NCBI RefSeq assembly: GCF_028609865.1
Contig: NZ_CP063194.1
Coordinates: 1,550,001 to 1,614,000, forward strand
From: Corynebacterium jeddahense
GTDB lineage: Bacteria > Actinomycetota > Actinomycetes > Mycobacteriales > Mycobacteriaceae
DNA length: 64,000 nucleotides
Direction: 5' to 3'
The notes beneath the pieces were generated by a model. The model was given only the letters and a program-made list of their open reading frames with translations, was not told where the DNA came from and searched no databases. Below are positions 6,809-54,482 of this stretch, in pieces. The translations under genes were made by a program, and so were the position numbers. Numbering within the stretch: the first letter of the stretch is position 1; each line of letters opens with the position of its first letter.

Positions 6809-7704
6809 CCGAGCGAGTCTAACGCCGCGCCAGACACGTCTGGGCCGGAGGCGTCGAGCCAGCTGATGCGGGGGTCGCGGTTGAACCAGGAGCGTTGGCG
6901 TCGCACGTAGCGGCGCGTACCCGTGATGGTCTGCTCGATTGCCTCGTCCTCGCTCAGCTCCCCGTCCAAATGCGCCAGAACCTGGGCGTAACCGATGGCG
7001 CGCCCGGCGGTAGAGTCCCTGACCAGGCCACGCTCGGACAACCCACGCACCTCACCAACAAGCCCCTGCTCGAACATCAGACGCGTGCGCAACTCGATGC
7101 GGGGGTTCAACCACTCGGCGGTCGTCCGCAGCCCGAGGATGCGCGCGCCCCAACGCGGCTCGGCGGCCTTCGGCGGCTGCGAGGCCTTGAACGGCTGACC
7201 TGTCAGCTCGATCACCTCGAGCGCGCGGACGGTGCGGCGCGGGTCTTTGTCCTCGATGATGCGCGCGGCCTCTGGGTCCACGTCGGCCAGCTCGGCATGC
7301 AGCGCATCCACGCCGATGTCTTCCAGGCGGGCCTCCCACCGAGCGCGGACTTGGGGGTCGGTGGGTGGGAACTGCCAGTCGTCGAGAAGCGATTGCGCGT
7401 ACAGCATGGAGCCGCCGACGATGACGGGAACCTTGCCGCGCGCCATGATGTCCTCGACCGTGCGCACCGCGAGTGCCTGGTATTCCGCGACGGACGCGGT
7501 CTTGGTCACCGGCCAGATGTCCAGCAGGTGGTGCGGGATGCCGCCGCGCTCGTCCGGCGCGAGCTTCGCGGTGCCGATGTCCATGCCGCGGTAGAGCTGC
7601 ATCGAGTCGACGTTGACCACTTCGCCGCCGAGTTCTTGCGCGAGCGCGATCCCGAGCGCGGACTTCCCGCTCGCCGTCGGCCCCACCACCGCGACGGGCC
7701 TCAT
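6805..7704 (-). CDS. miaA: tRNA dimethylallyltransferase
   Basis: MiaA transfers a dimethylallyl group to A37 of tRNAs reading U-starting codons; MiaB (12.3-13.8 kb) then methylthiolates the same base. The 299-residue protein begins [18 protein letters not shown], with the P-loop at residues 8-16. It contains [17 protein letters not shown] and [21 protein letters not shown], which are family signatures. The ATG at 7704 overlaps the preceding gene's stop (ATGA), and its own TGA overlaps the dapF GTG. Confidence 0.95.
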
Positions 7705-8264
7705 ACGCGCCACTCCGCCACGTAGCGCCCCACGCCGAGGGTGCCGTCGGCGTCGATGAGCCGCGCCTGCACGGGGTGCAGCGCCGCAAGTTCTTCCCAA
7801 AGTGCGGGCTCGAGCACATGCGTTGCGACGTCCTCCGGCGCCCCGCCGCCCAACCACGCCTGGATGCGCTCGTGGGCCGCCGCGTCGCCCTCGACAAGCG
7901 ATAGCGGCGCGCGCTGCGTCAGCCCCGCGGGTCCGTCGAGCACCACCACCGTGACCGCGTCCGGGTCGGGCGTGCCGATGCGCCCGCGCACCTCGCGGAT
8001 CTCCGGGTCGCCGAGCGCGAAGCGCGCCACGAGTTCGCCGAGGTGGTTGCCGCCGCGCACCGTGATCTCCGGCGCGCCCCACGCGGCGAACGAGCCCGTG
8101 TGCTCGGTGCGCCACCGGTCGTCGAGCGAGCAGACGATGTCCACCGCGCGACCGCCCGCCGTACCGGCAAGCGCGCGCGTCGCGCCGAGGAGGCGCCGCG
8201 AGGCGGGGTCGGGCGACAGGGCGAGCGCGGGCGAGCCCGGCACGATCCAGAGGTTCGATGTCAC
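7701..8264 (-). CDS. Conserved hypothetical protein upstream of miaA
   Basis: A soluble protein of about 187 residues starting [18 protein letters not shown] recognise it only by position: a protein of this kind precedes miaA in corynebacteria, and none of its motifs points to a reaction. The GTG at 8264 is preferred because AGGG lies upstream; the GTG at 8270 is an alternative. Its stop overlaps the miaA start (ATGA), so it is the first gene of the miaA-dapF operon and diverges from the DUF349 gene. Confidence 0.75.
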
Positions 8265-8399
8265 CCACACCACCCTACCCAGCGGGCTTATTGCGCCCCG
8301 CGACGGCGGGCGGGCCTGTACTATCGCACACATTGCGCTAAGGCAGCCGCGCAGCGCGGCACAGTGCGGCCACACACGGCTGCGGAAAGGACGTCCACG

Positions 8400-9803
8400 A
8401 TGACCGAGCCGAACACCCCGTCGAACTCCACCCCCGCTCCGGGCACGAACCGGCCCTCCCCCGCCGCGATGGCCGGCAAGGGCCCGAAGCCGGGCCCGCG
8501 GCCTGACGCGAAGCCCGGCCCGCGCCCGGGTGCCGCCCCCGCCTCCCCGAAGGCGACCCCGGCGCCGGTGCCGGCCCGCGAGCCGTCGGATCCGTCGAAG
8601 TTCGGGCGCGTGGACGAGGAGGGCAACGTCTTTCTCACCCGCGGCGGCGAGGAGCGCCAGATCGGCTCCTGGCAGGCCGGCACGCCGGAGGAGGGGCTCG
8701 CCCACTACGGCCAGCGCTACGACGACCTGGTTACCGAGGTCGAGCTGCTCGAGTCGCGCCTCAAGGCCCACCCGGAGGACGCGGACAGCATCCGCAAGTC
8801 CGCGGAGGCGCTCAAGGCGTCGCTCGGCGAGGCGGCCGTGATCGGCGACCTCGACGCCGTGGAGGCCCGCTTGGACAAGGCCGTCGCGGACTCCGACTCC
8901 GCACGGGAGCAGGCGAAGGAGCAGAAGGCGGAACGGCGTCGAGAAGCAATCGCCCGCAAGGAGGCCCTCGCCGCCGAAGCCGAGGATCTCGCCGAAAACT
9001 CCACGGACTGGAAGCGCGCGGGCGACCGCATCCGCGAGATCCTCGAGGAGTGGCGCGGCATCCGCGGCATCGACCGCGCGACAGACGACCAGCTGTGGAA
9101 GCGCTACTCCCGCGCCCGCGATAGCTTCAACCGCCGCCGCGGCTCGCACTTCGCGGAGCTCGACCGCGGGCGCGCGCAGGCGAAGAAGGCGAAGGAGGAC
9201 CTCGTCGAGCGGGCCGAGGCGCTCAAGGACTCCACCGACTGGGGCGAGACGGCGCGCGCCTACCGCGACCTCATGACGGAGTGGAAGGCCGCCGGCCGCG
9301 CCCCGCGCGAGGTGGACGACAAGCTGTGGGAGCGCTTCCGCGCAGCCCAGGACCACTTCTTCGAGGCCCGCAACGCCGTCAATGCCGAGCGCGACCGCGA
9401 GTTCGAGGACAACGCGAAGGCGAAGGACGCGCTCATCGCGGAGTACGCGCCGCTCATCGACCCGGAGAAGGGCCTCGGCGCCGCGAAGTCGAAGCTGCGC
9501 GAGCTGCAGGACAAGTGGGACGAGATCGGCTACGTCCCCCGCGGGCGCGTGCGCGAGTACGAGGACAAGATCGGCGACCTCGAGCAGCGCGTCGCCGACG
9601 CCGAGGAACGCCAGTGGCGCAAGTCCAACCCGGTCGCGCAGGAGAAGGTGAACCAGTTCCAGGTCAAGGCGGACGACTTCGTGCGCCAGGCCGAGGCCGC
9701 CGAGGCGAAGGGCGACGCAGCCAAGGCCGCGTCGCTGCGCGAGCAGGCGCAGCAGTGGCAGGAGTTCGCCGACGTCGCCGCCAAGGCCGTCAACGACCAG
9801 TAG
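8400..9803 (+). CDS. DUF349 coiled-coil protein
   Basis: The 467-residue protein carries a Pro/Ala/Lys-rich disordered N-terminus (residues 1-60) and then several DUF349 repeats. Each repeat is a helix pair with W-x-x-A/R and LW-x-R/F motifs (DQLWKRYSRARDSF, DKLWERFRAAQDHF, DKWDEIGYVPR). The protein is almost entirely helical and highly charged. The role of DUF349 proteins is poorly defined. The start ATG at 8400 follows GAAAGGA by about nine bases. A GTG-initiated GNAT gene begins on the last base of its stop codon, so the two are coupled. Confidence 0.88.
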   Translation: MTEPNTPSNSTPAPGTNRPSPAAMAGKGPKPGPRPDAKPGPRPGAAPASPKATPAPVPAREPSDPSKFGRVDEEGNVFLTRGGEERQIGSWQAGTPEEGLAHYGQRYDDLVTEVELLESRLKAHPEDADSIRKSAEALKASLGEAAVIGDLDAVEARLDKAVADSDSAREQAKEQKAERRREAIARKEALAAEAEDLAENSTDWKRAGDRIREILEEWRGIRGIDRATDDQLWKRYSRARDSFNRRRGSHFAELDRGRAQAKKAKEDLVERAEALKDSTDWGETARAYRDLMTEWKAAGRAPREVDDKLWERFRAAQDHFFEARNAVNAERDREFEDNAKAKDALIAEYAPLIDPEKGLGAAKSKLRELQDKWDEIGYVPRGRVREYEDKIGDLEQRVADAEERQWRKSNPVAQEKVNQFQVKADDFVRQAEAAEAKGDAAKAASLREQAQQWQEFADVAAKAVNDQ

Positions 9804-10876
9804 TGCTCCACCCGCAGCAGTTCGTCCCCCGCCCCGGCGCCCCCGACGCTACGGAGGCCGTGGTCGGGGGTTACGCGTTTTCCGCCACGCTGGCCATCCA
9901 GGACATCACCGGCCTTGCCACCTCGGGCGTGACCGCCTCGCACATCGCGAAGCGCCTCGAGCCCTCCGCCGAGTCGGAGGCGATCCTTTTCGGCCTCTCG
10001 TCGGCGCAGGCGCCGCGTCCCGTGACGGACCTCGGCTACCCCGAGCTCTTCCCCGGCGACCCCGTCGACGCCTGGCTCTTCGTCTCCCTGCCGCTCCTCG
10101 AGGATCTCGGCGTCGTCGAGGCCAACCTCACCCTCGACGCCGAGATCGCGCCCCTACCGGGAGAGCCGCTGCCCGAGGCGCCCTGGCACAGCGCGCTTTC
10201 GCTTCTCGACGACCTCTCGGCCCGCCTCGAGCGCCCCGCCCGCCAGCTGTGGGTCACCCACGCCTGCGGCGCCCCGGAGCCACCGTACGTGCGGGCGTTC
10301 GGCTACCGCCCGGCGTTCCGGGAGGACCAGGCGACGTTTTCCGTGGACGCCGTGTCGGCGCTGCCTCGCACCGGCGCCGCCGCGTTCGACGTCGTCTCCG
10401 GGCCCGGATTCGCCGCCCCGCGCACCGCGCCGCCCGGAGAGCTCGCGCAGTTCTCCCGCCTGCTCACCGCGGCGTCCGCGGACTACCCGCGCGGGGAGCT
10501 AGTCATGGACACCATCGAGTGGGACCTCGAGCGCATCGTCGACGCCGGCGAGCGCCTTAACGACCGCGGCGGCGCGCAACTGACCGGGCTCGCCTACGCG
10601 GGCGGGGAGATCGTCGGCCTATGCGAGGCGGTGCACTACTCCTCCGACGACCCAGCGGTGTGCGAGCTCGGGCTCGTCTACGTGCTGCCGGCGTTCCGGG
10701 GCCGGGGCATCGGCGCCGGCCTGCTGCGCGCGACGCTCGAGCGGGCGCGCGAGGTGTGGGACGACCTAGAGACGGTGTATTGCTCCTCCCCCGCCGATTC
10801 CTCCGCCGCGGCGGCGCTGCTCACCGCGCTCGGCGCCGAGGTGGTGTCCTCGACGACGGCGTGGCAGCGGGTTTAG
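9803..10876 (+). CDS. GNAT family N-acetyltransferase
   Basis: The C-terminal 100 residues hold the acetyl-CoA-binding signature: VCELGLVYVLPAFRGRGIGA (motif A, Q/RxxGxG/A as RGRGIGAGLL) near residue 290, followed by a helix and the final strand. The N-terminal 180 residues resemble a degenerate second GNAT fold. Substrate unknown. The start is GTG at 9803, overlapping the TAG of the DUF349 gene by one base (TAGTG). The stop overlaps the convergent exported-protein gene by four bases. Length 357 residues. Confidence 0.85.
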   Translation: MLHPQQFVPRPGAPDATEAVVGGYAFSATLAIQDITGLATSGVTASHIAKRLEPSAESEAILFGLSSAQAPRPVTDLGYPELFPGDPVDAWLFVSLPLLEDLGVVEANLTLDAEIAPLPGEPLPEAPWHSALSLLDDLSARLERPARQLWVTHACGAPEPPYVRAFGYRPAFREDQATFSVDAVSALPRTGAAAFDVVSGPGFAAPRTAPPGELAQFSRLLTAASADYPRGELVMDTIEWDLERIVDAGERLNDRGGAQLTGLAYAGGEIVGLCEAVHYSSDDPAVCELGLVYVLPAFRGRGIGAGLLRATLERAREVWDDLETVYCSSPADSSAAAALLTALGAEVVSSTTAWQRV

Positions 10877-11672: not shown

Positions 11673-12281
11673 TTAACTGCGCCGGTGGCGCTCCGCTGCG
11701 CGAGCCCTTCGGTCGTCGATAAGCAGCGGGTTCTCGTGCTGCGGAACCATTGGCGCGTACGCCGCCTCGTCGCGCTGCTGGGCCTCCGCGCGCTCGCGCG
11801 CGATGTCAACCTGCGCGTCGCTGCGCGACCAGATGAGCGGGAACAGCGTGAACACGGCGACGGCGACCGCAAGCATGGCGAGGTAGTAACCCGCCCCGCG
11901 GCCGATGCCGGTGCCGCCGGAGTTGCGCAGCCAGATGCCGAGGACGGAGAACACGAGCGAGACGGTGGTCAGCGCCCACCCGGCGACGGTGAGCGAGAAG
12001 CGGCGCACGGCGACCGCGAGCGAGGTGAGCACGCCGAGGCCGAGCAGCGAAAACCACGCGAAGAGGTACTCGGTGATGGCGGTGTGCGCGTCCTTCGCGG
12101 CGCCCGACGCGCCGAGAACCTGCCAGCCGGAGGCGTCGCCCGCGAACGGCAGGCACAGCGCGACAAGATAGGCCGCCGCGCAGCCGACGAGCACCCACCG
12201 CCGCTGCCCCATGTCCAACTGGGAGGCCGCGTCCTTCTCCGCGCGGGCGAGCGACTGGCTATCGGTGCTGGGCTGCGTCAT
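11673..12281 (-). CDS. Four-helix membrane protein of the Rv2732c type
   Basis: About 202 residues with four hydrophobic segments (WVLVGCAAAYLVALCLPF, YLFAWFSLLGLGVLTSLAV, VAGWALTTVSLVFSVLGIWL, YYLAMLAVAVAVFTLFPLIW) and a charged C-terminal tail. In mycobacteria and corynebacteria a membrane protein of this kind follows miaB, which supports the assignment; the function is unknown. The ATG at 12281 is preferred over a TTG nine bases upstream. It starts 17 bases after the miaB stop and is probably in the same transcript. Confidence 0.82.
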   Translation of the reverse strand: MTQPSTDSQSLARAEKDAASQLDMGQRRWVLVGCAAAYLVALCLPFAGDASGWQVLGASGAAKDAHTAITEYLFAWFSLLGLGVLTSLAVAVRRFSLTVAGWALTTVSLVFSVLGIWLRNSGGTGIGRGAGYYLAMLAVAVAVFTLFPLIWSRSDAQVDIARERAEAQQRDEAAYAPMVPQHENPLLIDDRRARAAERHRRS

Positions 12282-16204: not shown

Positions 16205-16825
16205 ATGACAACTGCACAGCCCCAGCGCGCCACGAACAGCGCCGCCCGCGCCGCCAAGAGCAGCGGCAACAGCACCGCGCAAGACATCGCCCTTATCGCC
16301 GTCTTCGCCGCGATCATCATCGTCCTCGGCTTCGTCTCCATCCCGGTGGGCGCGGCCGGCGTGCCCATCGTTCTGCAGAACGCGGCCGTCATCCTCGCCG
16401 GCCTCGTTTTGGGCTCGCGCCGCGGCTTCTACACCGCCGGCATCTTCCTCCTCGTCGGCCTCGCGCTCCCGGTCCTCGCCGGCGGCCGCACCGTTATCTC
16501 CGCCCTCGGTGGTCCGACGGTCGGCTACCTCGTGGGCTACCTCGTCTCCGCGCCGGTCGCTGGGGCGATCGCCTACCGCGCCCCGTTCCGCTCGAACAAG
16601 GGCGCGACTATCGGCATCCTCGCCGTTGCAGGCTTCGTCGCCCTGTTCTTCCAGTACCTCTGCGGCGTCTTCGGCCTCATGTGGCGCACCGACATGAGCT
16701 TCGGCGGGGCGTGGGCGGCCCAGGTGCCGTTCCTGCTCCCAGACGCCGGCAAGACCGTACTTATGATCGCCATCGCGTTCGCGGTGCACCAGGCGTTCCC
16801 TGATTTGCGCGGGGCTCGTCGATAA
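16205..16825 (+). CDS. bioY: Biotin transporter S component BioY
   Basis: BioY is the substrate-binding membrane subunit of the biotin ECF transporter. The 206-residue protein has six hydrophobic segments. It carries the family signature in VPIVLQNAAVILAGLVLGSRRGF and the GGPTVGYLVGYL motif. The start follows the BioQ-type palindrome. bioM begins five bases after the stop and bioN follows, giving the complete BioMNY transporter. This suggests reliance on external biotin. Confidence 0.94.
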   Translation: MTTAQPQRATNSAARAAKSSGNSTAQDIALIAVFAAIIIVLGFVSIPVGAAGVPIVLQNAAVILAGLVLGSRRGFYTAGIFLLVGLALPVLAGGRTVISALGGPTVGYLVGYLVSAPVAGAIAYRAPFRSNKGATIGILAVAGFVALFFQYLCGVFGLMWRTDMSFGGAWAAQVPFLLPDAGKTVLMIAIAFAVHQAFPDLRGARR

Positions 16826-16829
16826 GCAA
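16817..16829 (+). repeat. Dispersed motif copy CGTCGATAAGCAA at bioY stop
   Basis: An exact copy of the dispersed 13-mer spans the last bioY codons and stop (CGT CGA TAA) and ends one base before the bioM ATG at 16831. Confidence 0.7.
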
Positions 16830-17520: not shown

Positions 17521-18122
17521 TCCGCGAACTCCCCCTCGGCGTTTACGTCCCGGGCACGACCCTGCTGCACCGCCTGGATCCCGCGCTCAAGTTCGTGCTG
17601 CTCGTGGCGTTCATCGTCGTGGTCACGGCCCTGCCCACGCAGCCCTGGCACGCGGCGGCGGCGTTGGTGTTCGTGCTCGTGCTCTACGCTTGGGCGCGCA
17701 TCCCCGCGGGGCTGGCGTGGCGCCAACTCGTGCCGCTCCTGCCCGTCCTGGTGTTCCTTGGCGCGTTCATGGCCTGGCAGAACGGCGTGGTGCGTGCGTC
17801 GACGCTGCTCATCGGCCTGCTTGCGACCATCGCGGCGGCGAACCTGCTCACCTTGACCACTCCTGTCGAAGAGCTGCTCGCCGCCCTCGACCGCGCGCTC
17901 GCCCCCTTCGGGCGCACCGGCGAGCTCATCTCGCTCACCATCGCGCTCACGATCCGCCTCATCCCCCTCACGCTCGCCACCGCGAACGAGGTCCTCGACG
18001 CGCGCAAGGCCCGCGGCGTCGGGTTCTCCTTTGCCGCGTTCGTCATCCCGCTCGTCATCCGCTCGGTCCGCCGCGCGAAGATGATGGGTGAGGCGTTGAT
18101 GGCCCGTGGTGCCGTCGATTAG
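17517..18122 (+). CDS. bioN: Biotin ECF transporter T component BioN
   Basis: BioN is the energy-coupling transmembrane subunit linking BioY to BioM. The 201-residue CbiQ-family protein has about five hydrophobic segments. It shows the two coupling motifs near the C-terminus: EVLDARKARG and RSVRRAKMMGEALMARG (the Ala-Arg-Gly signatures). The GTG start overlaps the bioM stop in GTGA. A hairpin follows the stop codon directly. Confidence 0.92.
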   Translation: MIRELPLGVYVPGTTLLHRLDPALKFVLLVAFIVVVTALPTQPWHAAAALVFVLVLYAWARIPAGLAWRQLVPLLPVLVFLGAFMAWQNGVVRASTLLIGLLATIAAANLLTLTTPVEELLAALDRALAPFGRTGELISLTIALTIRLIPLTLATANEVLDARKARGVGFSFAAFVIPLVIRSVRRAKMMGEALMARGAVD

Positions 18123-18143
18123 CAATTGCTTCTCGACGGCACC
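18108..18143. terminator. Hairpin between convergent bioN and surface-protein gene
   Basis: Arms GGTGCCGTCGA (18108-18118) and TCGACGGCACC (18133-18143) are perfectly complementary and enclose the palindrome AGCAATTGCT. The right half contains an exact copy of the dispersed motif (TTGCTTCTCGACG, 18126-18138). There is no T-run, but its place in the 31-base gap between two convergent genes suggests a terminator for one or both. Confidence 0.55.
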
Positions 18144-18153: not shown

Positions 18154-21100
18154 TTACTTGCTGCTGCCCACCGAGCTGCCCTCGCCGCCGGTGCAGGCGT
18201 TGAGGATGGACGCGATCGCCACGATGCCGAGCGCAGCCGCGGCGAGCCCACCGGCTGCCATCTGCACCTGCGGGTCAACCTGCGGGAAGAGCTGGGCGGC
18301 CTGCTCCTGGAGCGGGCGGATCGCCTCGGTCAGCTCCGGCGGTAGCGGCAGCTCGATCTGGGTGGCCAAGCCGAGCGGGACCAGCGCCGCGAGCGGGATG
18401 AGCCAGCCGGCGATCGCGGCGACGCACTTGCCGTCGAGCGAAGAGCCCGCGGCCTGCGGCACCGTGGTCACGGACGTCACCGTCGCGGGGCTTGCCGCGG
18501 TGGTGACCGTCGTGGTGGCGCCCGGGGCCGCGTTGTTGGACCCCGTCGACGGTGCGGCCACGATCTTGAGCTGCTCCACGGTGGTCGCGCCATCGAGCGT
18601 GGTGACGATGGTCGCCTCGTACACGCCCGGCTTCTCCACCTTGCCCGCGAGCAGGTGCTTCTCCGCATCGAACTGCAGGCCCGCAGGAAGGTCCTTGACC
18701 TCGATGACGGCACCCTCCGCCGCGGGGACCCGGTAGATCACGCGGGTCTCCCCCGCGACAATGCCGGTGAGCGCCGGGGCGACGCGCTCAGTCGTGGACT
18801 TCGGCGTGACGGTGTTGATAACCGCCGGGGCCGTCGCGGTCTCCGTGACCGGCTTGCCGACCGTGGTCAGCGTCGGGGTGGTGGTCACCGTCTCGGTGCC
18901 GCCCGCAACCGTCTCCGTGACCGGCTCCGCCGTCTTCGTGACAGGCTGGGCGGTCTTGATCTCGGTGATCGTCACCGGCGCAGCGGTGTGCGTCGGCGTC
19001 GTGGTGGCCTTCTCGGTCACCGTCGGCGTCGTGGTGACCTTTTCGGTCACCGTCGCCGTCTCCGTGACCGGCTCCGCCGTCTTCGTGACTGGCAGGGCGG
19101 TCATGGTCTCGGTGATCGTCACCGGCGCAGCGGTGTGCGTCGGCGTCGTGGTGACCTTCTCGGTCACAGTCGGAACTACAGTGACCGTCTTGGCGGTCGC
19201 CGTCTCTGTCACCGTGCTGGCGTCTGCGGTTGCAGTCGGCACCGTCGTCTGCGTCGTCGTCACCGTCGGAGTAGTCGTAACAGCCTTCGCCGTCTCCGTC
19301 GTCACCTCAGTCTTCGCCGCCGCCGTAGACGTCGGCACCGTCGTCTGCGTCGCCGTCACCGTCGGAGTAGTCGTAACAGCCTCCGCCGTCTCCGTCGCCA
19401 CCTCAGTCTTCGCCGCCGCCGTAGACGTCGGCACCGTCGTCTGCGTCGCCGTCACCGTCGGAGTAGTCGTGACAGCCTTCGCCGTCTCCGTCGCCACCGT
19501 CGTCTGCGTCGTCGTCACCGTCGGAGTAGTCGTAACAACCTGCGCCGTCTCCGTCGCCACCTCAGTCTTCGCCACCGCCGTGGTCGTCGGCACCGTCGTC
19601 TGCGTCGCCGTCACCGTCGGAGTAGTCGTGAAGGTCGTGGGCGTCGTAGTGATGGTCAGCGTCTTCGCGGGATCCGTCACCGTGGCTGTCGGTGTGGTCG
19701 TCACAGTCGTCGCCGGAACGACCACGGTCGTAGCCGGAGCAGTGGCGATAGTAGACCCCGAAGTCGTGGTTGCCGGGACGGTTGTCGGCGGCTTGCAGGT
19801 CTGCGTGGTTTCGAACGACGCCGCGCGCATCGACGTCTTTCCATCGCTGAACCCATCGTCCGACCACAGGAAGCGCGTAGCTACTGTCTGCTTACCCGCA
19901 TCGGAGCATTCGCCAAGTTTGGTGTAGGACGCAAACCCTTCGTTCGCGAAGTTCTGCTTCATCCCCTGCGGTCGCTTCTCTGCCCCGCTTACCTCGACAA
20001 ATTTCGACCCGTCGTATTTGAGCGCGATCGATGCACCCTCACACTTTTCGTCGCACACAACCCTGAGCTCTTTGCTCTCGTTGTTGTAGTCGAGCGCCAT
20101 CACCTGTTCGAACGGCGCCTTATAACGATCATGTACCTCGACAAAGGATTCGTCAGAATTCAGTTTCACGAAGAGGACTTCACCCGTAGTTTCAACGCCG
20201 ACCGCGTATGCGTCCAGCTCTGGAATATACGAGATTGCTTCGAGCCCACCGTTGTAGCCGATCAACTGTGTAAACGCGGAAGCCAGATTCCATTCGTGAG
20301 TCGCCTTAATGTCACCACTGGATTTGGTCGGGCGGTCGTACCCAAGCACCGAGGGACGGGAGACCCTCGGCTCGTCGCCGTCGCGCTCGGTGGCCACGTA
20401 GAGCGCACCACCGGGACCGACGGTCACACCCTCCGCATCGGGCGCACCGTTACCGTCCTTGTAGCGCAGCTGCCACTTCCCGTCAACCGAGTATGTTCGA
20501 GAGGCGTCATCGTAGACCAGCTTGTACAACGTGCCCGTCGTGTTGTTCACCACCCAGGCGTTTCCGTCCTCATCGAAGTCGATACCGGAGGTGTCCTCCG
20601 CCCGGAAGTCCGCACCAAGGTCAAGGTCGACGATCTCCTGGGGGTCGAACGGCCACTCTTTTTCCGCCCACACAACCTTTTCAATGTTTGGCCCCCCCGG
20701 AGTCGGCTTTCCGGTGCCGCGGAATTCACCCGTTCCGTCCGGAATGCGTCCAAGCGATTGGATTTGGTGGGACTTCCAATCCGTGTGATCAACTTCGTTT
20801 CCTTTAGCGTCGAAGAGGTGCACCTCGTCCGCGGCACCGAGGCCAAATCCCTTGCCGCCATCGACAGCTAAAGCGTCGACGTAGAACTGTTTGAACTCAC
20901 CGGGTTGAAGCGTGGTGCCTTTCGGGATGACCACCTGGTGCTTGCTTAGCCCGTCGGAGTCGGTGAGCTTCCACCCAGAGATGTCAACGGGCGTATCGCC
21001 CATGTTGTAGAGCTCCACCCAGTCGTCGATGACGTCTTTCGTCGCCACCTCGTTGATAACGACGTTTCCGCTCTTCGACGAGGGCTGCGTGGTGGCGGGT

Positions 21101-23555: not shown

Positions 23556-24095
23556 CTAGTTTTGTTCCCGCACGCCGGAAAGTGCTCCGCGCAGGGCGGC
23601 CTCGACGGCGAGTCGGCGCACTTCGTTGCGCTCCCCCGCGAGTACGCGCACCGGCACGGCGGCACCCTCGCGCAGCGCGAAGCGGCTGCAGGAGGCGTCG
23701 AGCAGCTCGGCCGCCTGCGAGGACGCTGTCCACTTCGGCCCGGCGAGCCCGATCCACACCGTGCCGGCCGGCACGCCGTCCTGCGCGTCAGGCCCGGCGA
23801 CGCCGGTGAGCGAGACCGCCCAGTCCGACCCGCACGCACGACGCGCCCCGCGCGCCATCTCGCGAGCCACCGCGGCGGAGACCACCGTCTCGCGCTCAAT
23901 GGTCTCCGCCGGGACGCCGGCCAGCGCGGTCTTGAGCTCCGGCGAGTACGTCACCAGCCCGCCGACGAGCACATCGGACGCGCCCGGCACCTCCGCGAGC
24001 GTCGCCGCGGCGAGGCCGGCGGTGAGGGACTCGCAGAAGGCGATGGTTTGGCGGCGGACACGGAGCTCGTCAATAAGCAACTGCGCTGTGGTCAC
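23556..24095 (-). CDS. cinA: CinA C-terminal domain protein, nicotinamide-nucleotide amidase
   Basis: The 179-residue protein is the stand-alone CinA C-terminal (PncC) domain, which deamidates nicotinamide mononucleotide to nicotinate mononucleotide in NAD recycling. Signatures are FCESLTAGLAAATLAEVPGAS, GGLVTYSPELK and the SLTGVAGPDAQDGVPAGTVWIG loop. The GTG start at 24095 overlaps the pgsA stop in GTGA. clgR follows 23 bases downstream, the conserved pgsA-cinA-clgR order. Confidence 0.93.
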   Translation of the reverse strand: MTTAQLLIDELRVRRQTIAFCESLTAGLAAATLAEVPGASDVLVGGLVTYSPELKTALAGVPAETIERETVVSAAVAREMARGARRACGSDWAVSLTGVAGPDAQDGVPAGTVWIGLAGPKWTASSQAAELLDASCSRFALREGAAVPVRVLAGERNEVRRLAVEAALRGALSGVREQN

Positions 24096-26160: not shown

Positions 26161-26300
26161 AAAACCTCCGGTCAGAGTTACAGAGACGACCGGAGGTCTC
26201 CCCCACCGCGTGGGCTGTCCGGACCGGGGCCATTGCGTATCGACGGCTCCGTGCTGACGGTCCTGGACACTTCCGGGGTACTCCCCTCCAAGCGTGTTTC
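26161..26300 (-). ncRNA. yybP-ykoY manganese riboswitch upstream of terC
   Basis: Read on the minus strand, the leader holds the aptamer landmarks: GGGGAGUA in loop L1 (about 26279-26288) and GGGAGACC in loop L3 (about 26196-26206), with GC-rich stems between. The 3' end (CCTCCGGTC ... GACCGGAGG, 26164-26204) can form a competing hairpin just before the start codon, a plausible expression platform. yybP-ykoY elements bind Mn2+ and commonly precede TerC genes. Edges are approximate. Confidence 0.85.
26233..26245 (-). repeat. Dispersed motif copy TTGCGTATCGACG inside riboswitch
   Basis: An exact copy of the dispersed 13-mer (TTGCGTATCGACG variant) lies in the middle of the terC leader. Confidence 0.6.
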
Positions 26301-26340: not shown

Positions 26341-29300
26341 CTAGAACGCGCCGCCGGTCGGGTTATACGTGGCGGTGACAGTCTTGGTGTCGCCCCCGCC
26401 GGCGCCACCCGCAGCGCCGCCCTCCGCGCCAGCATCCGAGGCGATGTCGCTGGGGTCGCCGAAGGAGGCGTCGTCAAGCGAAGGCTCCTTGGGCGCCTCC
26501 GCGGGGTCCGCGCCCTTGATCATCCAGATGATGGTGTCCAGCTCCTCGGGTTTGACCAGCACCTCGCGCGCTTTCGAGCCCTCGGACGGGCCGACGACGC
26601 CGCGCGACTCCATGAGGTCCATGAGGCGGCCGGCCTTGGCGAAGCCGATGCGCAGCTTGCGCTGGAGCATCGACGTCGAGCCGAGCTGCGAGGTGACCAC
26701 GAGCTCGACGGCCTCGAGGAGGTCGTCCATGTCCTTGCCGATGTCGTCGTCGATGACCTTGGCCTCGGCCTGCTTGTCCTCCGTGACGCCCTCAACGTAG
26801 TCCGGCTCATCCTGCGACTTCGCTGCCTCGACGACGGCCTGGATCTCCTCGTCGGTGACGAACGCGCCTTGGAGGCGCTGCGGCTTTCCGGCGCCCTGGG
26901 GGATGAACAGGCCGTCGCCCATGCCGATGAGCTTTTCGGCGCCGCCCTGGTCGAGGATGACGCGCGAGTCCGTCAGCGACGACGTCGCGAAGGCCAAACG
27001 GGATGGCACGTTCGTCTTGATCAAGCCGGTGACCACGTCGACGGACGGGCGCTGCGTCGCCAGTACGAGGTGGATGCCGGCCGCGCGCGCCTTTTGGGTG
27101 ATGCGGACAATGGATTCCTCGATCTCCTTCGGCGCCGTCATCATGAGGTCGGCGAGCTCGTCGACGACGCATACGATGAACGGATACGGGCGCATCTCGC
27201 GCTCGGAGCCCGGCGGGGCCACCAGCTCGCCGGAGCGGACCTTGCGGTTGAAGTCCTTGATGTGGCGCACGCGCGCGGACTTCATGTCCATGTAGCGCTG
27301 CTCCATCTCCTCGACGAGCCACTGCAGCGCGGCCGCCGCCTTCTTCGGCTGGGTGATAATCGGCGTGATCAGGTGCGGAATGCCCTCGTACGGGGTGAGC
27401 TCCACCATCTTCGGGTCGACGAGGATGAGGCGGACCTCCTCCGGCGTCGCGCGGGTGAGCAGCGAGACGAGCATCGAGTTCACGAACGCCGACTTACCGG
27501 AGCCGGTCGAGCCGGCCACGAGCAGGTGCGGCATCTTCTGGATCGAGCTGGCGATGAACTCGCCCTCGATATCCTTGCCCAGCCCGATGAGCATCGGGTC
27601 GTCCTGCGCCGCCACCTTCGGCGCGTCGAGTACGTCGCGAAGGCGCACCATCTCGCGGTCGGCGTTGGGCACCTCGATGCCCACGGCCGACTTGCCAGGG
27701 ATCGGGGTAAGCAGGCGCACGTTGTCCGTCGCCACGGCGTACGCGAGGTTCGATTGCAGGTTCGTGATCTTCGAGACCTTCACGCCCGGGCCGAGCTCGA
27801 CCTCGTAGCGCGTCACTGTCGGCCCGCGCGAGAACCCGGTGACCTGCGCGTTGACGTTGAACTCCTCGAAGACGTCCGTGATCGCCTCGATCATCCGGTC
27901 GTTCGCCTCGGTGCGCGTCTTCGGCGCGGCGCCGGGGATGAGCAGGTCCGTCGACGGCAGCGTATAGTCGCCCTGCGGGATCTTGCGCACCTTTTGCGCC
28001 GGCTTCTCCAGCTCGGACTTCGGCGTCGTCGCCGGGATCTTCGACGCGTCGATGCCCGAGCGCGCCGCGATCGCCTTCGCCATCTGCTCGCGGGAGCTGG
28101 CCACGGCGTCGGGGGCAGTTGCTTCTCGACGTTCACCCTCCGGCTCGCGTTCTCCCCGCTCGATGACGCGCGTCTCGTTGTCCCGCACGGGGCGGCGCTT
28201 CGCCGGGGCCGGACGCGAAACCGCCGTGGTCGGCGCCTCGGGGGCGGCGGCGGGCTGGGCCGGCGCGGCGTCGTCGAGGTCGGCGTCCAGGTCGGTGGCG
28301 CCGCCGAGGTCAATGTCGCCGTCGAGGTCGACCTCGTCGGCGAAGTCGAACAGCTCGTCATCGCCGCGGTCGGTCTCGTTCGTGGGGTAGCTCTCCATCG
28401 GCGTCGGGCGGCGGCGCGGCGGACGGGCCGGGCGCTCGGCCCGGAAGTTGCGCGCGGGGCGCGGCGCCGGTGCAGTCGCAGTTGCCGTGGCGGAGCGTCG
28501 CTCGCGGCCGTCCGCGATGTCGTCGAGGTCGTCCGATACGTGTGCGTAGGGGTCCGAGTCCTCGTCCGCGTCCGCCGCGCCCCCGGACCGGAACCCGGCG
28601 AACATCCCGATCGCGAGGCCCTTGACGTAGTCGTACGCCTCGCGCACCGTGATGCCCGTGGCCTTGAGGGCGCCGTAGACGATGATGAGGCTAAGCAGCG
28701 GCACCGCGATGTACGCGGAGAACCCGGCGGCGAGCAGACCGCCGGTGAACGCACCGATCACGCCGCCGGCGGTCTTGCGCTCCGACCACGCCGAGGGGTT
28801 TCCGGCGAAGACGTGAACGAGCCCGAGCATGCCGAGCGCGATGATGCTAAATCCGAGCGTGACGCGGGCGCGCACCTCGTCGCTCGCGCGCACGTTGAGC
28901 ATGAGCGCAAGCGCCACGCCCACAAGGACGACGGGCAGGATGAGCGCGCCCGCGCCGATGAGCCAGTGCGTCCCCGTGGAGATGAGGTCGCCGACCGGCC
29001 CCGCCACGTCGAACCACACGGAGCCGCCGATCACGGCGGCGAGGCCGATGAGGATGAGGCCCCACGCGTCGGCGTGGGTCTCGAACGTGCTCGGGCCCCC
29101 GTTGCCAAACCGGGGCTCGCGGGGTGCGCGCTCCTCGGCCTCCTCCTCGCGGGGTGCACGGCGGCCGCGGCGCTCGCGCGGGGCGTCGTCGTCACGCTCG
29201 GGCTCGAAGAAATCCTCGTGTTCCTCGGGTTCGTGGTCGCGGCGGAAGAACGCGCCGACGCCGCGCGCTGCGGCGCCGAGCGAGCTGCCCACGGCCTTGT

Positions 29301-30717: not shown

Positions 30718-30744
30718 AGGAGCGTCGAGAAGCGAACTGCTCCT
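30718..30744. terminator. Hairpin with dispersed motif at RNase J 3' end
   Basis: AGGAGC (30718-30723) and GCTCCT (30739-30744) pair around CGTCGAGAAGCGAA (30723-30736), an exact GCGAA-type copy of the dispersed motif. It overlaps the first base pair of the RNase J stop codon. No T-run is present, so terminator function is uncertain. Confidence 0.4.
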
Positions 30745-32928: not shown

Positions 32929-33873
<945 letters not shown>

Positions 33874-33882
<9 letters not shown>

Positions 33883-34500
33883 GCCTTCGGCGCCCAAATC
33901 GCCAAACAGCCGCGGCGCCTCGCCCCGCATGACCTTGAGTACCGCTTCCGCCACCGCGCGGGTCTCCTCGTGCTCGTACGGCCCATCGTGGTCCGCCACG
34001 AACTCCCGCCACGCGCGGTAGGACCCGGAGGCCACGGCCTGGACCGCGGCCGCGGCGGGCGCGAGCGCGCGCACCGCCTCCGCCGCGCGCTTGCGCCGCA
34101 GCAGCGCGTTCGCCTCCCCGGCGAGCTGCTCCTCCACTGCGGCGCCGAGCTCCCCCTGCACGAAGTGAATGTCTTCCACCGCGGTGCGGAACATGCGCGC
34201 GAGCTCCTCGTCCCCGGCGATAACCGCCGGCACGACGAACCCCTCGTCCGCGCGCAGGGTGACGTGCAGCCCGGGCGCGGCCTCGAGGGCGTGGGCCGCG
34301 TCGCGCGAGATCCCCCGGATGTGCAGGCTCGCCCCGGCGTGGTCGAGCAGGCCGGTGCGGTCGTCGTCGATAAGCGAATGCAACAGCCCCTCCGGCGCGA
34401 TGTCGGACAAGGCGGCGTGCGCGATGGTGGCCTCGCCGTCCGTCATGCCCTCCGGGCCGGGGATGCGCAGCGACGTCGCGGCGACGAGTTGCACCCGCAT
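33874..34500 (-). CDS. Degenerate ThyX-like protein lacking the flavin/dUMP motif
   Basis: This 208-residue protein sits where thyX lies in C. glutamicum (between dapB and dapA) and keeps several ThyX landmarks. These include GLLDHAGASLHIRGISRDAAH, EANALLRRKRAAEAVRALAP, SGSYRAWREFV and an end LFGDLG. The segment that should carry the ThyX signature RHR-x7-S and the following SxRY is replaced by EAAPGLHVTLRAD, and the C-terminal 25 residues are missing. It can therefore hardly be an active flavin-dependent thymidylate synthase. The frame is open with no stops, so it may be retained for another role. The ATG follows the dapB stop directly. Confidence 0.75.
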
Positions 34501-35286
<786 letters not shown>

Positions 35287-38453: not shown

Positions 38454-38491
38454 TGTTCGGGCGGCTGCGTATCGACGGCAGCTTCGCCCAA

Positions 38492-40814: not shown

Positions 40815-41708
40815 ATGAACGATCCCCTCGCAGCCTCCGGCATTGTCGTCGTTGACAAGCCGCAGGGCCTGACCAGCCACGACGTCGTGGCCCGCCTGCG
40901 CCGCATCTTCGGCACCCGCAAGGTCGGCCACGCCGGCACGCTCGACCCCATGGCCACGGGCGTCCTCGTCGCCGGCATCGAGCGGGGCACGAAGCTGCTC
41001 GCCCACCTCGTCGCGCACGACAAGGTCTACGAGACGACGATCCGCCTCGGTGCCTCGACGACGACGGACGACGCCGAAGGGGACGTCGTCGACACGCACG
41101 ACGCCTCCGCGGTCACCGACGAGGCGATCCGCGCCGAAGTCGCGCGGCTGACCGGCGAAATCATGCAGGTGCCGTCGAAGGTCTCCGCAATCAAGATCGG
41201 CGGCCGGCGCGCCCACGAGCTTGCGCGCGCGGGCGAGGAGGTAGACATCCCGGCGCGGCCGGTCACCATCCACGCCTTCGACCTCGCCGAGATGCGCCGC
41301 CACGACGGCGTCGTCGACGCCGACGCGCGGGTCCACTGCTCCTCCGGCACCTACGTCCGCTCGCTCGGGCGCGACCTCGGCGCCGCCCTCGGCGTAGGCG
41401 GGCATCTCATTGCGTTGCGACGCCTCCGGGTCGGCCCCTTCACCATCTCCGCCGCGCGCACCCTGGACCAGCTCGAGGACGCCCCGGCGCTTTCCCTCAC
41501 CCTCGACGAGGCCCTCACTCGCGCGTGGCCGGTCCTCGACGTGACGGAGGAGGAGTACGCGGCGCTGGCGATGGGCAAATGGCTCGAGCCGCGGGGGCTC
41601 AAGGGCGTGCACGCCGCGGTCGGGCCGGACGGACGTGCGGTGGCGCTGGTGAAGGAGCAGGGCAAGCGGCTGGCGACGGTGTTTGTGGCGCGGCCGTCGA
41701 CGCTGTAG
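40815..41708 (+). CDS. truB: tRNA pseudouridine(55) synthase
   Basis: TruB makes pseudouridine at position 55 in the T-arm of tRNAs. The 297-residue protein starts with SGIVVVDKPQGLTSHDVV and carries the catalytic aspartate in GHAGTLDPMATGVL (residue 43 region). KVYETTIRLGAST and the SSGTYVRSLGRDLG segment are further hallmarks, and a C-terminal PUA-like domain follows. The ATG at 40815 diverges from ribF. Confidence 0.95.
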   Translation: MNDPLAASGIVVVDKPQGLTSHDVVARLRRIFGTRKVGHAGTLDPMATGVLVAGIERGTKLLAHLVAHDKVYETTIRLGASTTTDDAEGDVVDTHDASAVTDEAIRAEVARLTGEIMQVPSKVSAIKIGGRRAHELARAGEEVDIPARPVTIHAFDLAEMRRHDGVVDADARVHCSSGTYVRSLGRDLGAALGVGGHLIALRRLRVGPFTISAARTLDQLEDAPALSLTLDEALTRAWPVLDVTEEEYAALAMGKWLEPRGLKGVHAAVGPDGRAVALVKEQGKRLATVFVARPSTL

Positions 41709-44567: not shown

Positions 44568-45563
44568 CTACGCCTGGGGCTGGGGTGCGGTGGGTTCCGG
44601 GATCGCGTCGATAAGCTCGCGCACGATCTCCTCCCTGCTGCCCGCCGCGGAGTAGCCGGCGGCAGCGCGGTGGCCCCCGCCGCCGAGGCGCGCGGCCACA
44701 CGGGAGACGTCGACGACCGTCGAGCGCAGCGAGAGCGCCCAGTACTCCGGCGCCTGCTGCTTGAGCACCACGCCAACGTCGGTGCCCTCGAGCGCGCGGG
44801 CGTAGTCGATGACGGCCTCGACCGCGGTTTGGCTCATCCGCGCGTGCAGCGGCAGCGGGATGGTGAGCACGGCGATGTCGAGCCCGTGGGCGGGGATGAT
44901 CTGGGTCTCGGCGAGCACCGCCCCCATGAGCTGGAGGTCGACGGCGCTCATCGTGTCCATAAGGTCGAGCGCGATCTGGCGCGTGTTCAGCCCGTATCCC
45001 ATGAGCTCCCCGGCGAGCGCGTGCATGCGCGGGCTGCCCCAGCGGAAGCTGCCCGTGTCCGTGACCAGGCCCGCGTAGAGGCAGTACGCGAGGTCGGTGT
45101 CCAGCTCGACGCCGAGGTAGGCGAACAGCTCGCGGATCATCGTCGTCGTGGACTCCGAATCCACGATGAGGTTGAGCCCGCCGAAGCCTGGGTTCGTCTT
45201 GTGGTGGTCGATGACCACCACCCGCGACGGGTCCGCCTCGATCGCGGGCTGGAAGGCCCCGGTGCGGTCGACGGAGGCGCAGTCCACGGTGACCACGAGC
45301 CCGTCCTTCGGCAGCGGCGTGCCGTAAGCGATCTCGTCGACGCCGGGCACGGTGCGCAGGTTCGCCGAGTGCGGCAGCGGCTGGCCGATGTGCGCGGACG
45401 CGTCCACGCCGAGCTGGCGCAGCCCGCCGACGAGCGCGCAGGCCGAGCCGACCGCGTCCGCGTCCGGCTTGACGTGCGCGACCACGCTCACCTTCTCGGC
45501 CGCGCGCAGGCGGTCAGCGACGGCCTCGAACTGCGCGGCCGCCCTGGGAAACAACGACGCCAT
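44568..45563 (-). CDS. nrnA: DHH family oligoribonuclease/pAp phosphatase
   Basis: NrnA-type enzymes degrade nano-RNA and 3'-phosphoadenosine 5'-phosphate. The 331-residue protein has VAHVKPDADAVGSACAL (DxD of the DHH domain), VTVDCAS, VIDHHKTNP (the DHH motif) and the DHHA1 end RLGGGGHRAAAGYS. The start at 45563 follows the rbfA stop by three bases. Conserved position after rbfA supports the assignment. Confidence 0.94.
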   Translation of the reverse strand: MASLFPRAAAQFEAVADRLRAAEKVSVVAHVKPDADAVGSACALVGGLRQLGVDASAHIGQPLPHSANLRTVPGVDEIAYGTPLPKDGLVVTVDCASVDRTGAFQPAIEADPSRVVVIDHHKTNPGFGGLNLIVDSESTTTMIRELFAYLGVELDTDLAYCLYAGLVTDTGSFRWGSPRMHALAGELMGYGLNTRQIALDLMDTMSAVDLQLMGAVLAETQIIPAHGLDIAVLTIPLPLHARMSQTAVEAVIDYARALEGTDVGVVLKQQAPEYWALSLRSTVVDVSRVAARLGGGGHRAAAGYSAAGSREEIVRELIDAIPEPTAPQPQA

Positions 45564-46083: not shown

Positions 46084-46109
46084 CGTCGATACGCAATTGC
46101 GTTGCGACG
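46084..46109. repeat. Abutting inverted pair of the dispersed motif after infB
   Basis: CGTCGATACGCAA (46084-46096) is followed with no spacer by TTGCGTTGCGACG (46097-46109), centred on GCAATTGC. It ends at the base before the infB stop-codon complement. The pair can form a hairpin and may act as a terminator or attenuator before rbfA. Confidence 0.7.
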
Positions 46110-49110: not shown

Positions 49111-49443
49111 TCAGTGTTCGGTCTTTCCTTTATCGTCTGGGTCTGTTGCGCCGTCGCAGTTGCGTTGCGACGACCCAAGGTACGTACGTACATGACCTAG
49201 ATCCGCTTGCGCGGACAGACGGAGCGCCCGCCCGAAGGCGCGGCGTTGTTCCGCCAGCTCAACTGCGTCCAGCGTCGGGGTGATCCACGCGCCACGACCA
49301 GGAAGCTTCCTGGCCGGGTCCGCGAGCACTCTCCCCGGCACGTCCGGATCGGCGACGACCCGCAGCAACTGCGTATCAGGCTGCGGGACCCGGGTGGCAA
49401 TGCAGGTACGGGTGCGGATGGGCTGCTTGCGTGTTCCGCTCAT
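49111..49443 (-). CDS. ylxR: YlxR (DUF448) RNA-binding protein
   Basis: A 110-residue YlxR-family protein, encoded between nusA and infB as in most bacteria. Signatures are RTCIATR, LLRVVADP, the GRGAWITPT loop and RRAFGRALR. YlxR proteins bind RNA and have been linked to RNase P modulation. The ATG at 49443 gives MSGTRKQPIRTRTC; the frame is open farther upstream but aligned relatives start here. An inverted motif copy (49160-49172) lies within the C-terminal codons. Confidence 0.9.
   Translation of the reverse strand: MSGTRKQPIRTRTCIATRVPQPDTQLLRVVADPDVPGRVLADPARKLPGRGAWITPTLDAVELAEQRRAFGRALRLSAQADLGHVRTYLGSSQRNCDGATDPDDKGKTEH
49160..49172 (-). repeat. Dispersed motif copy TTGCGTTGCGACG in ylxR
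   Basis: Exact copy of the TTGCGTTGCGACG variant, preceded by CGTCGCAG so that GTCGC-AGTTGCGTT-GCGAC forms a short hairpin. Confidence 0.6.
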
Positions 49444-51977: not shown

Positions 51978-51985
51978 CTCAGTCC

Positions 51986-53764
51986 CTAGCCGCGGACGAG
52001 CTCCTGCACCTTGGCCACCACTCCGTCGGCCGGGACCTCGAGCGTCTCGCCGCCGCGGATACGCAGCTCCACGATGCCGTCGGCGAAGGAGCGCCCGAGG
52101 ATGACGATGAACGGCATGCCCAGCAGCTCCGCGTCCTTGAACTTGACGCCGGGGGAAACCTTGGGGCGGTCGTCGTAAAGCACCTCGAGCCCGGCGTCGG
52201 AGAGCTCCGCGGCGATGCGCTCGCCGGCTTCGAGCGCCGCGGCGTCCTTGTTCGCCACCGCGACGTGCACCTGGTACGGGGCGATCTCGACGGGCCAGAC
52301 GAGGCCCTTCTCGTCGTGGCGCTGCTCGGCGATCACGGCGAGCATGCGGGAGATGCCGATGCCGTAGGAGCCCATGGTGGGCACGGCGCGCTTGCCGTTT
52401 TCGTCGAGGATCTGCACGTCCATGGCCTCGGTGTACTTGCGGCCGAGCTGGAAGATGTGGCCGAGCTCAATGCCGCGGGCGAGCTCGACGGTGCCGTTGC
52501 CGCTCGGCGAGGGGTCGCCCGCCTTGATCTCGGCAGCCTCGATGAACCCGTCGACGGTGAAGTCGCGGCCGGCAACGAGGCCGACGACGTGGCGCTGCGG
52601 GGCGTCCGCGCCGGTGATCCAGGACGAGCCTTCGACCACGCGCGGGTCCGCGAGCACGCGCACCCCGTTCGCCTGCAGCCCGCGCGGGCCGATGTAGCCG
52701 CGCACAAGGAAGGGGTGCTTGGCAAAGTCCTCGTCGGTGGCGAGCTCGAACGTCGCGGGCTCGAGCGAGGCCTCGAGGCGCTTCTCGTCCAGCTCGCGGT
52801 CGCCCGGGATGAGCACGCCGGTGAGCTGCGGGCCGACGGGCGAGCCGTCCTCGTTCAGCGCGCGCGGGTCGTTGATCTTGACCACCATGCACTTGAGGGT
52901 GTCGGAGGCTTGGGCCGGACGGCCGTCGATAAGAATGCCCTCGCCGTTAGCCCACTCGACGAGCCCGGCGATGGTCTCGGAGGCGGGCGTGTCGTGCTCG
53001 ACGGCCTCGGGCAGGCCGTCGCAGCCGCGCGGAGCGGGCGCGACAGTGGTCACGGCCTCGACGTTGGCGGCGTAGTCGCCCGCCGTGGACACGACGAAGG
53101 TGTCCTCGCCGTTGTCGGAGTACGCGAGGAACTCCTCGGACGCGGAGCCGCCCATGGCGCCGGAGGTGGCCTTGCAGATCTCGTAGCGCAGGCCCACGCG
53201 GTCGAAGATGCGCTGGTAGGTGGCCCGGTGAGCGGCGTACGAAGAAGCCAGGCCCTCGTCGGTCATGTCGAAGGAGTAGCTGTCCTTCATCACAAACTCG
53301 CGCCCGCGCAGGATGCCGGCGCGGGGGCGGGCCTCGTCGCGGTACTTCGTCTGGATCTGGTACAGCGTGACCGGGAAGTCCTTGTAGCTCGAGTACAGGT
53401 CCTTCACCGCGGTGGTGAACATCTCCTCATGCGTCGGGCCGAGCAGCATGTCCGCGCCCTTGCGGTCCTTGAGGCGGAACAGGTCGTCGCCGTACTCGGT
53501 CCAGCGGTTCGTCGCCTCGTAGGGCTCGCGCGGCAGCAGCGCCGGGAAGAGCAGCTCCTGGGCGCCCATCGCGTCCATCTCCTCGCGCACGACGCCCTCG
53601 ATCTTGCGCAGCGCGCGCAGGCCCAACGGCAGCCAGGAGTACACGCCAGGCGCGGCGCGGCGCACGTAGCCGGCGCGCACGAGCAGCTTGTGGCTGGGCA
53701 CCTCGGCGTCGGCGGGATCTTCGCGCAGCGTGCGCAGGAACAGCGTGGACAGGCGTGTAATCAT
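51986..53764 (-). CDS. proS: Prolyl-tRNA synthetase
   Basis: ProS charges tRNA-Pro. The 592-residue bacterial-type enzyme has class II motifs: motif 1 region around [23 protein letters not shown], motif 2 [19 protein letters not shown] and motif 3 [18 protein letters not shown] YbaK-type editing insertion lies between about residues 225 and 400 ([13 protein letters not shown]). ATG at 53764. yaaA diverges 31 bases away. Confidence 0.96.
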
Positions 53765-53795
53765 GGTTGGCAAGCTTACCGCTAGGGTTTGGCGC

Positions 53796-54482
53796 ATGTT
53801 GATCGTGCTCCCGCCCTCCGAGACCAAGGCGCCCGGCGGCGTCGCCGCGCCGATGGCGCTCTCGTTTCCGTCGCTCGATCCGGTGCGCACTTCGCTTATC
53901 GACGTCCTCACGGCCACCACCGTCGACACCCAGATGTCCGAGCTGAAGATCCCCGCCGGCAAGCGCGCGGATGCCGAGGAGAACCTGGTGCTGCGGTCCG
54001 CGCCGGTCATGCCAGCGATCCGGCGTTACACCGGGGTGCTTTACGACGCCCTCGACGCCGCCTCGCTGTCCGACGCCGCGCTCTCGCGCATCGTCGTCGG
54101 ATCGGCGCTGTTCGGGCTGGTGCGAGCGACGGATTGCCTGCCGCGCTACCGCGTCTCCGGCGGGTCCAAGGTGGGCGGGAGGACCATGAAGGCGTGGTGG
54201 GGTACGTCGGTTAGCGATGTGCTCGCACAGGAGGACTTCGTGGTGGACCTGCGTTCCGGCGCGTACCAGCAGCTCGGCCCGGCGCCGGGGGCGGTGACGG
54301 TGCGCGTGGAGCAGGCTGACACCGGCAAAGTGGTCAGCCACTTCAACAAGCATTACAAGGGCGAGCTGGCCCGCGCGCTTGCACTGCATGCCGCAGCGTC
54401 GGCCGAGGAAGTTGCCGAGATCGCTTCCGCCGCCGGCTTCAACATTACTGTCGACGGCACGCTGCTCACGATGCGTGTGTAG
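53796..54482 (+). CDS. yaaA: YaaA/UPF0246 peroxide-stress protein
   Basis: YaaA lowers intracellular iron damage under peroxide stress in E. coli and has DNA-binding ability. The 228-residue protein starts [14 protein letters not shown], the conserved LLSPAK-like N-terminus of actinobacterial forms. It carries [14 protein letters not shown] and the [15 protein letters not shown] motif near the end. It is divergent from proS. The TTCGCTTATCGACG motif copy at 53891-53904 lies inside it. Confidence 0.9.

Follow-up and report, generated by a model that had tools for sequence, protein, structure and literature searches.

Why does one short word recur, in both orientations, along a 64-kb stretch of a Corynebacterium genome? 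The stretch (G000:C1:1550001-1614000; "the window" below means all of it) lies in a single-contig genome of 2,567,696 bases, and an original prediction, made from its letters, had described a degenerate motif of 13-14 bp spread over 46 kb, leaving uptake-type, regulatory, methylation and nucleoid-organising roles equally open. The analysis presented here suggests that the repeated word is a putative DNA uptake sequence, that is, a self-mark that would favour kin DNA over foreign DNA, and we give this reading a probability of roughly 0.7. It also seems likely that the genus as a whole possesses a sexual-isolation system with at least three uptake-sequence dialects, read by a Tad/Flp-pilus uptake machine. 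Such a system would be the first in Gram-positives and Actinobacteria, and independent of the DNA uptake sequences (DUS) and uptake signal sequences (USS) described in other bacteria. Among FtsK relatives, the 80 kept from named genomes are Corynebacterium, one of these records being named just to Actinomycetales; C. wankanglinii, C. haemomassiliense and C. mucifaciens are among the close FtsK relatives of the host.

Over-Representation of the Word

Copies were counted with a strict motif, CGTCGANAMGCRA, and with a relaxed core, the 11-mer CGTCGANAMGC, and the letter-reversed motif served as control for pattern counts. Described this way, the GCAA and GCGAA forms that had been listed separately merge into one, CGTCGANAMGC(A/G)A. 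Genome-wide there are 395 strict copies (190 forward, 205 reverse) and none of the reversed control, CGTCGANANGCNA has 448 against 3 for its control, and the relaxed core has 1,116 (549 forward, 567 reverse) against 29.

Further statistics come from an own-genome sample made up of the window and 40 stretches of 20 kb (864 kb in all, 34% of the genome), in which de novo gene calling gave 860 genes and 88.8% coding sequence. This sample holds 139 strict copies, while 400 column-shuffled patterns average 0.5 and reach 8 at most. An ab initio scan of 10-mers places GTCGATACGC, GTCGATAAGC and their overlaps at the top for over-representation, and an iterated weight matrix recovers 593 sites where an order-5 Markov control yields 58, or about one true site per 1.6 kb. 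In the window itself the strict motif occurs 15 times (mean 0.035 and maximum 1 in 400 column-shuffled versions), and the near-identical CGTCGADAMGCRA occurs 13 times, with means of 0.2 and 0.3 in 20 order-3 and 20 order-5 Markov shuffles, respectively.

The excess is not a by-product of coding. Within genes, 108 strict copies compare with a mean of 2.7 after within-gene shuffling of synonymous codons (maximum 4 in 10 runs) and 0.4 after shuffling of codon order; for the relaxed core the figures are 351 observed, 38 and 13.8. The synonymous shuffles rule out a codon or peptide origin, and the encoded peptides at motif sites differ from one another. A genome-wide count against Markov expectation had been set beforehand as the test of the motif, and the counts far exceed the Markov, reversed, column-shuffled and synonymous-shuffled expectations alike. 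The motif is thus confirmed as real and genome-wide, and its 46-kb span in the window is part of that wider pattern. A literature text search for the motif letters returned matches of which the listed titles look unrelated. Other strong 10-mers of the sample are repeated words such as TGAGCGGGGATGAGCC, which by their letters we take to be a CRISPR repeat of the type I-E kind.

Anatomy, Orientation and Placement

The word is directional, with a core CGTCGANA(A/C)GC(A/G)A, a G-rich 5' flank (CCGGAGG-like) and a 3' flank resembling GC(C/T)CC; no sequence conservation was found beyond about 30 bp around the copies. The arms beside the core have a mean longest stem of 3.16, against 3.04 for re-dealt arms (standard deviation 0.07), and since they pair hardly better than these, the motif is mainly a directional DNA word. 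The earlier description of copies as often lying within hairpins holds for a minority and fails as a rule: a degenerate inverted partner lies within 8 bp of 9 of the 139 strict copies (0 for a letter-reversed partner word), as in the head-to-head pairs at 18113/18126 and 46084/46097. A hairpin as the general form of the motif was rejected on this count. Spacing measured with the relaxed pattern on both sides puts 3 of 358 intervals under 20 bp, a count that pairs with a variant partner escape.

The strict copies of the sample are distributed as 108 in genes, 28 between genes and 3 over stop codons. Intergenic DNA is about twice as dense in them as genic DNA (31 in 106 kb, with 12 bp added on each side, and 108 in 766 kb). 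The genic copies run along the gene strand in 51 cases and opposite to it in 57; the opposite-strand copies fall in one frame in 52 of 57 cases, and the same-strand copies occupy frames 2, 1 and 0 in 26, 18 and 7 cases. Such a bias is as expected if only tolerable frames survive.

The suggested check for orientation bias relative to origin and terminus revealed none: relaxed copies in the sample number 200 on the leading and 199 on the lagging strand, with the origin assumed near position 1 and the terminus placed by a weak GC skew. An oriented chromosome motif of the Chi or KOPS kind was rejected for this lack of strand bias. The copies are spread about evenly (mean 9.3 and variance 9.9 per 20 kb).

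Dialects Across Corynebacterium

If the word marks self DNA, related species may carry words of their own. The host's word (word 1, dialect D1) has 0-498 copies in 201 Corynebacterium genomes, and 16 genomes from other families of the order have 0-13. Word 2 (D2), GCATCGGCAAGC, emerged from a k-mer scan covering 100 kb of G006, a genome nearly free of word 1. It has 402 copies in G069, 239 in G154 and 209 each in G006 and G121, and all genomes but 12 have 0-19 copies of it. The third word, GGCGTCGGA(A)NRAG, was found in G049; as GGCGTCGGANNRAG (word 3, D3) it has 37, 36, 28, 27, 18, 12 and 11 copies in G049, G088, G015, G151, G010, G164 and G014, and at most 8 elsewhere. Since word 2 was picked in G006 and word 3 in G049, as word 1 was in the host (G000), the counts in these genomes are no independent test.

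With thresholds of 20, 20 and 10 copies for words 1, 2 and 3, 133 of the 201 genomes pass for D1, 12 for D2 and 7 for D3, and none passes two (Fisher p = 1.1e-6 for D1 by D2, genomes being counted without phylogenetic correction). The threshold of 20 lies within noise for some genomes, the reversed control reaching 20 in G004 and 15 in G012, against a few in most others. The remaining 49 genomes have no word at threshold, and several of these hold 8-19 copies of one.

Common to the three words is C(G/A)TCG(A/G), after which come A-rich bases that contain AG. Two positions separate the D1 form CGTCGACAAGC from the D2 form CATCGGCAAGC, and the A-rich part of D3 is displaced one to two bases further on. 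The D2 genome G069 likewise has a G-rich 5' flank. No clear fourth word was found in 100-kb k-mer scans of G164, G179, G012, G010, G014, G055, G144, G163, G149, G168, G064 and G171. G010, G164 and G171 have weak words of the GGCGTCG type that may be part of D3. In the samples of G149 and G171 (the set L208-L212 / L223-L227), CGTCGAGCA has 24 copies (expected 8.4) and GGCGTCGA has 82 (expected 45), respectively, and these may be traces of further dialects.

Low-GC Genes

Genes of at least 300 nt with less than 60% GC (n = 48, 43.9 kb) contain no strict and no relaxed copy, for which base composition accounts in part, while the remaining genes of that length (n = 686, 698 kb) contain 105 strict and 345 relaxed copies. 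The low-GC stretch L113 (56.7% GC) has 5 relaxed copies nonetheless. Genes of the highest coding score are also poor in copies, which runs counter to a simple trend and perhaps reflects codon constraint. The poorest stretch, L095 (G000:C1:630001-650000), has 57.5% GC, about 68% coding by our own calls and one relaxed copy; this 20-kb stretch is a possible island.

Conservation in Relatives

Nine strict window sites (15-41 kb) were aligned with 27 relatives, with no alignment through the motif at 34365. In the closest relatives the alignment spans most sites with substitutions only; more distant relatives also show gaps. At site 33870 six aligned relatives have an identical 13-mer, while the flanks vary by substitutions and short indels. 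The original prediction had named conservation at orthologous sites as a check, and the result bears it out: among 12 relaxed sites in 7 close relatives, 22 of 42 site-species pairs (52%) keep all nine fixed core positions. For other CGTCG words the figure is 69 of 403 (17%), and random positions give 88 of 484 (18%). Identity per base in core and flanks is 86.2% and 78.6% for the motif, and 83.4% and 82.6% for other CGTCG words.

Copies in the Window

The copies seen in the window are as follows (position, strand, description).

1749..1759, +, relaxed core CGTCGATACGC
2263..2273, -, relaxed core CGTCGACACGC
3629..3641, -, strict motif CGTCGACAAGCAA, absent from the earlier list
7380..7392, +, strict motif CGTCGAGAAGCGA, inside miaA, opposite the gene strand
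8937..8949, +, strict motif, within a DUF349 gene
10199..10211, -, strict motif, within a GNAT-domain gene but on the other strand
11714..11724, +, relaxed core CGTCGATAAGC
16817..16829, +, strict motif; overlaps a bioY-like gene's stop codon
18113..18125, +, variant CGTCGATTAGCAA, head-to-head with the 18126 copy
18126..18138, -, strict motif, in a convergent intergenic region, inverted pair with 18113
24068..24080, +, one-mismatch copy CGTCAATAAGCAA
24720..24732, -, strict motif, intergenic
26233..26245, -, strict motif, between genes; the relatives' stretches L004 and L041 have an orthologous motif form
28119..28131, -, strict motif, within ftsK; L002, L003, L006 and L041 have the identical sequence
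30723..30735, +, strict motif, intergenic, 8 bp beyond the 3' end of the RNase J gene
33870..33882, -, strict motif; overlaps a thyX-like gene's stop; 13-mer shared unchanged by the 6 relatives whose alignment runs through it
34365..34377, +, strict motif, within the thyX-like gene but on the other strand
34767..34779, -, strict motif, inside dapB
35112..35122, +, relaxed core CGTCGAGAAGC
38467..38477, -, relaxed core CGTCGATACGC
41087..41097, +, relaxed core CGTCGACACGC
41410..41422, -, variant CGTCGCAACGCAA
43531..43541, -, relaxed core CGTCGATACGC
44606..44616, +, relaxed core CGTCGATAAGC
46084..46096, +, strict motif, intergenic, 14 bp beyond the 3' end of the gene for initiation factor 2 (IF-2; infB-like)
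46097..46109, -, variant CGTCGCAACGCAA, head-to-head with 46084
49160..49172, -, variant CGTCGCAACGCAA
50956..50966, +, relaxed core CGTCGAAACGC
53892..53904, -, strict motif, inside proS
54789..54799, +, relaxed core CGTCGAAAAGC
59977..59987, -, relaxed core CGTCGAAACGC

All 19 intervals previously listed do carry the words given for them or one-mismatch forms. The motif had also been thought limited to 7.4-54 kb, which is incorrect given the strict copy at 3629-3641 and the relaxed cores at 1749, 2263, 54789 and 59977. The statement that a large surface-type gene is free of copies stands, the relaxed core being absent from 18154-22029. This gene (- strand) encodes a large protein of secreted type (1291 aa as called) that contains three stretches of lamin-tail domain as well as a phytase-like domain, and it has a very weak match to the extracellular nuclease ExeM.

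Competence and Tad Machinery

An uptake sequence would require a machine to read it. ComEC is present in all 201 Corynebacterium genomes, and a T2SSE/TadA-type ATPase exceeds the cut-off in 195. The host carries ssd-, tadA-, tadB-, tadC-, flp (DUF4244)-, tadE- and tadF-like genes at C1:206930-211291, of which we take ssd, flp, tadE and tadF to be such by gene order, their Pfam matches being weak, uninformative or none. At about C1:1942304-1945565 it has a comEA-like gene (SLBB plus helix-hairpin-helix), comEC and a DNA polymerase III delta gene, and dprA lies at C1:1634558.

In the proposed mechanism, a surface DNA receptor of the competence machinery would prefer the word. A pilin of the Flp/Tad pilus or ComEA may bind double-stranded DNA via the word, after which the DNA would be pulled in. 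A single strand would then pass through ComEC, be guarded by DprA and be recombined by RecA. Biased uptake together with recombination could raise copy number via point substitution at tolerated sites, and altered receptor specificity might turn a genome over to a new dialect.

The presence of ComEC and TadA in wordless genomes means that the machinery alone neither predicts nor demands the word, and many competent bacteria show no uptake specificity. Presence or absence of TadA was rejected as an explanation of the word, as TadA is also found in motif-less genomes, in many of them only in a more divergent form. The best TadA E-value is weak in 27 of 47 wordless, 6 of 7 D3, 6 of 129 D1 and 0 of 12 D2 genomes, those without a usable E-value being excluded. 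A TadA tree of 18 genomes, among them one D1, three D2 and five D3, separates with 100/100 support the D1 genome, the three D2 genomes, the weak D3 genome G014 and two wordless genomes from the four other D3 genomes and seven wordless ones. In these 18 Corynebacterium genomes TadA falls into two deeply split types, and the subclade G163, G044, G144, G046 and G193 has none of the three words at threshold.

Alternative Explanations

It is conceivable, if unlikely, that the word is a site for a nucleoid-associated or chromosome-organising protein (MatP-, SlmA- or Noc-like) acting over the whole chromosome. The sequence specificity of the motif, its even, genome-wide spread on both strands, the flanks that belong to it and its conservation in relatives all suit such a site. 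The copies, however, show neither replichore preference nor marked clustering, and most of them lie within genes. Moreover, in the absence of a drive, wholesale replacement of the word among congeners would take hundreds of changes in concert, and the lack of copies in low-GC genes fits a self-DNA drive better, even though composition partly confounds this point.

We consider it improbable that the word is a Chi-like self-recognition mark of a DNA-end-processing or defence nuclease, shielding the cell's own DNA in repair or entry. The motif is dense, species-specific and absent from likely foreign genes, as such a mark would be, but sites of the Chi type are short and favour one strand relative to replication, whereas the motif spans 11-13 bp plus flanks and divides 200/199 between the strands of the sample. 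Relics of a tiny mobile element inserted many times, resembling repetitive extragenic palindromes or miniature inverted-repeat transposable elements, are very improbable: they would account for the many copies, the 9 of 139 arranged head-to-head and the species-specific abundance, but close wordless relatives differ mainly by substitutions with no missing block (distant ones do show gaps), 108 of 139 copies lie in genes in preferred frames, and conserved sequence ends at about 30 bp. An artefact of codons, dipeptides or composition, for which a genome of 67% GC with abundant CGTCG-like words might speak, can practically be dismissed given 108 copies against 2.7 in synonymous shuffles, a reversed control of 0, species with 0 copies and the existence of intergenic copies.

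The uptake-type reading is supported, as a predicted function, over the regulatory, methylation and nucleoid roles by replichore-neutral orientation, interchanging words, absence from low-GC genes, conservation and the presence of Tad, ComEA/EC and DprA. Density, strand symmetry, permissive frames, conservation above that of other words, a possible restriction to self DNA and words that interchange around a common core together liken the motif to the DUS dialects and USS types, and from this likeness we infer uptake.

Several points weigh on the other side. Neither natural transformation nor uptake sequences in Corynebacterium were found in the titles and abstract beginnings of a literature mostly outside subscription journals. 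ComEC and a TadA also occur among the genomes without any word above threshold, which number 49 of 201. Phylogeny confounds the association of TadA type with dialect, and is itself that of one gene (TadA) in 18 genomes with a single D1 genome. The low-GC test is partly confounded by composition, and the 42 conservation pairs derive from just 12 sites. Exclusivity of the dialects is one of thresholds: D1 genomes reach up to 14 copies of the D2 word and D2 genomes up to 16 of the D1 word, with 11-16 D1 copies in three D2 genomes (G127, G167 and G195) and 11-14 D2 copies in some D1 genomes (G052, G067, G090 and G215). G012 is a doubtful D1 genome (25 copies, reversed control 15, word unseen in the 100-kb k-mer scan), and D3, at 11-37 copies, is weak.

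Comparison With Known Systems

We know of no group beyond the Pasteurellaceae and Neisseriaceae with uptake sequences. If the uptake reading is true, Corynebacterium would provide a third, independent case, in a Gram-positive genus, and self-marking of DNA would be seen to evolve repeatedly. Many Corynebacterium species would be predicted to be naturally transformable, the three dialects would serve as natural experiments leading toward the receptor, and the words would predict which species swap genes with one another.

The copy number of DUS is in the same range as that of the host motif. Uptake sequences are described for the Pasteurellaceae and Neisseriaceae (PMC7811141, PMC1939737), and the DUS of Neisseriaceae resembles the motif in being an over-represented word of about 10-13 bp with a shared core and species dialects that follow phylogeny (PMC3630211; length also PMC12616744). 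The host differs in the sequence of its word and in being a Gram-positive actinobacterium with a Tad/Flp pilus, and its specificity is a predicted one. The USS of Pasteurellaceae comes in two types (Hin and Apl) enriched in different subclades, with a common inner core and a motif extended by flanking bases (PMC12616744), all of which is similar to the situation here. The extended USS is A+T-rich beside its core according to the same paper, in contrast to host flanks that are G-rich on the 5' side and C-rich on the 3' side, and the envelope and pilus class of the host also differ from those of USS hosts. The nearest counterpart in machinery is the actinobacterium Micrococcus luteus. The main text of PMC4322843 does not use the term "uptake sequence", and transformation in Corynebacterium is a prediction of the present work. 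The same text reports that transformation of M. luteus needs Flp/Tad genes and that Tad together with ComEA/EC is frequent in the actinobacterial lineage; M. luteus and the host thus share both their phylum and the kinds of genes, namely the Tad pilus, ComEA and ComEC, by which DNA would be taken up (PMC4322843).

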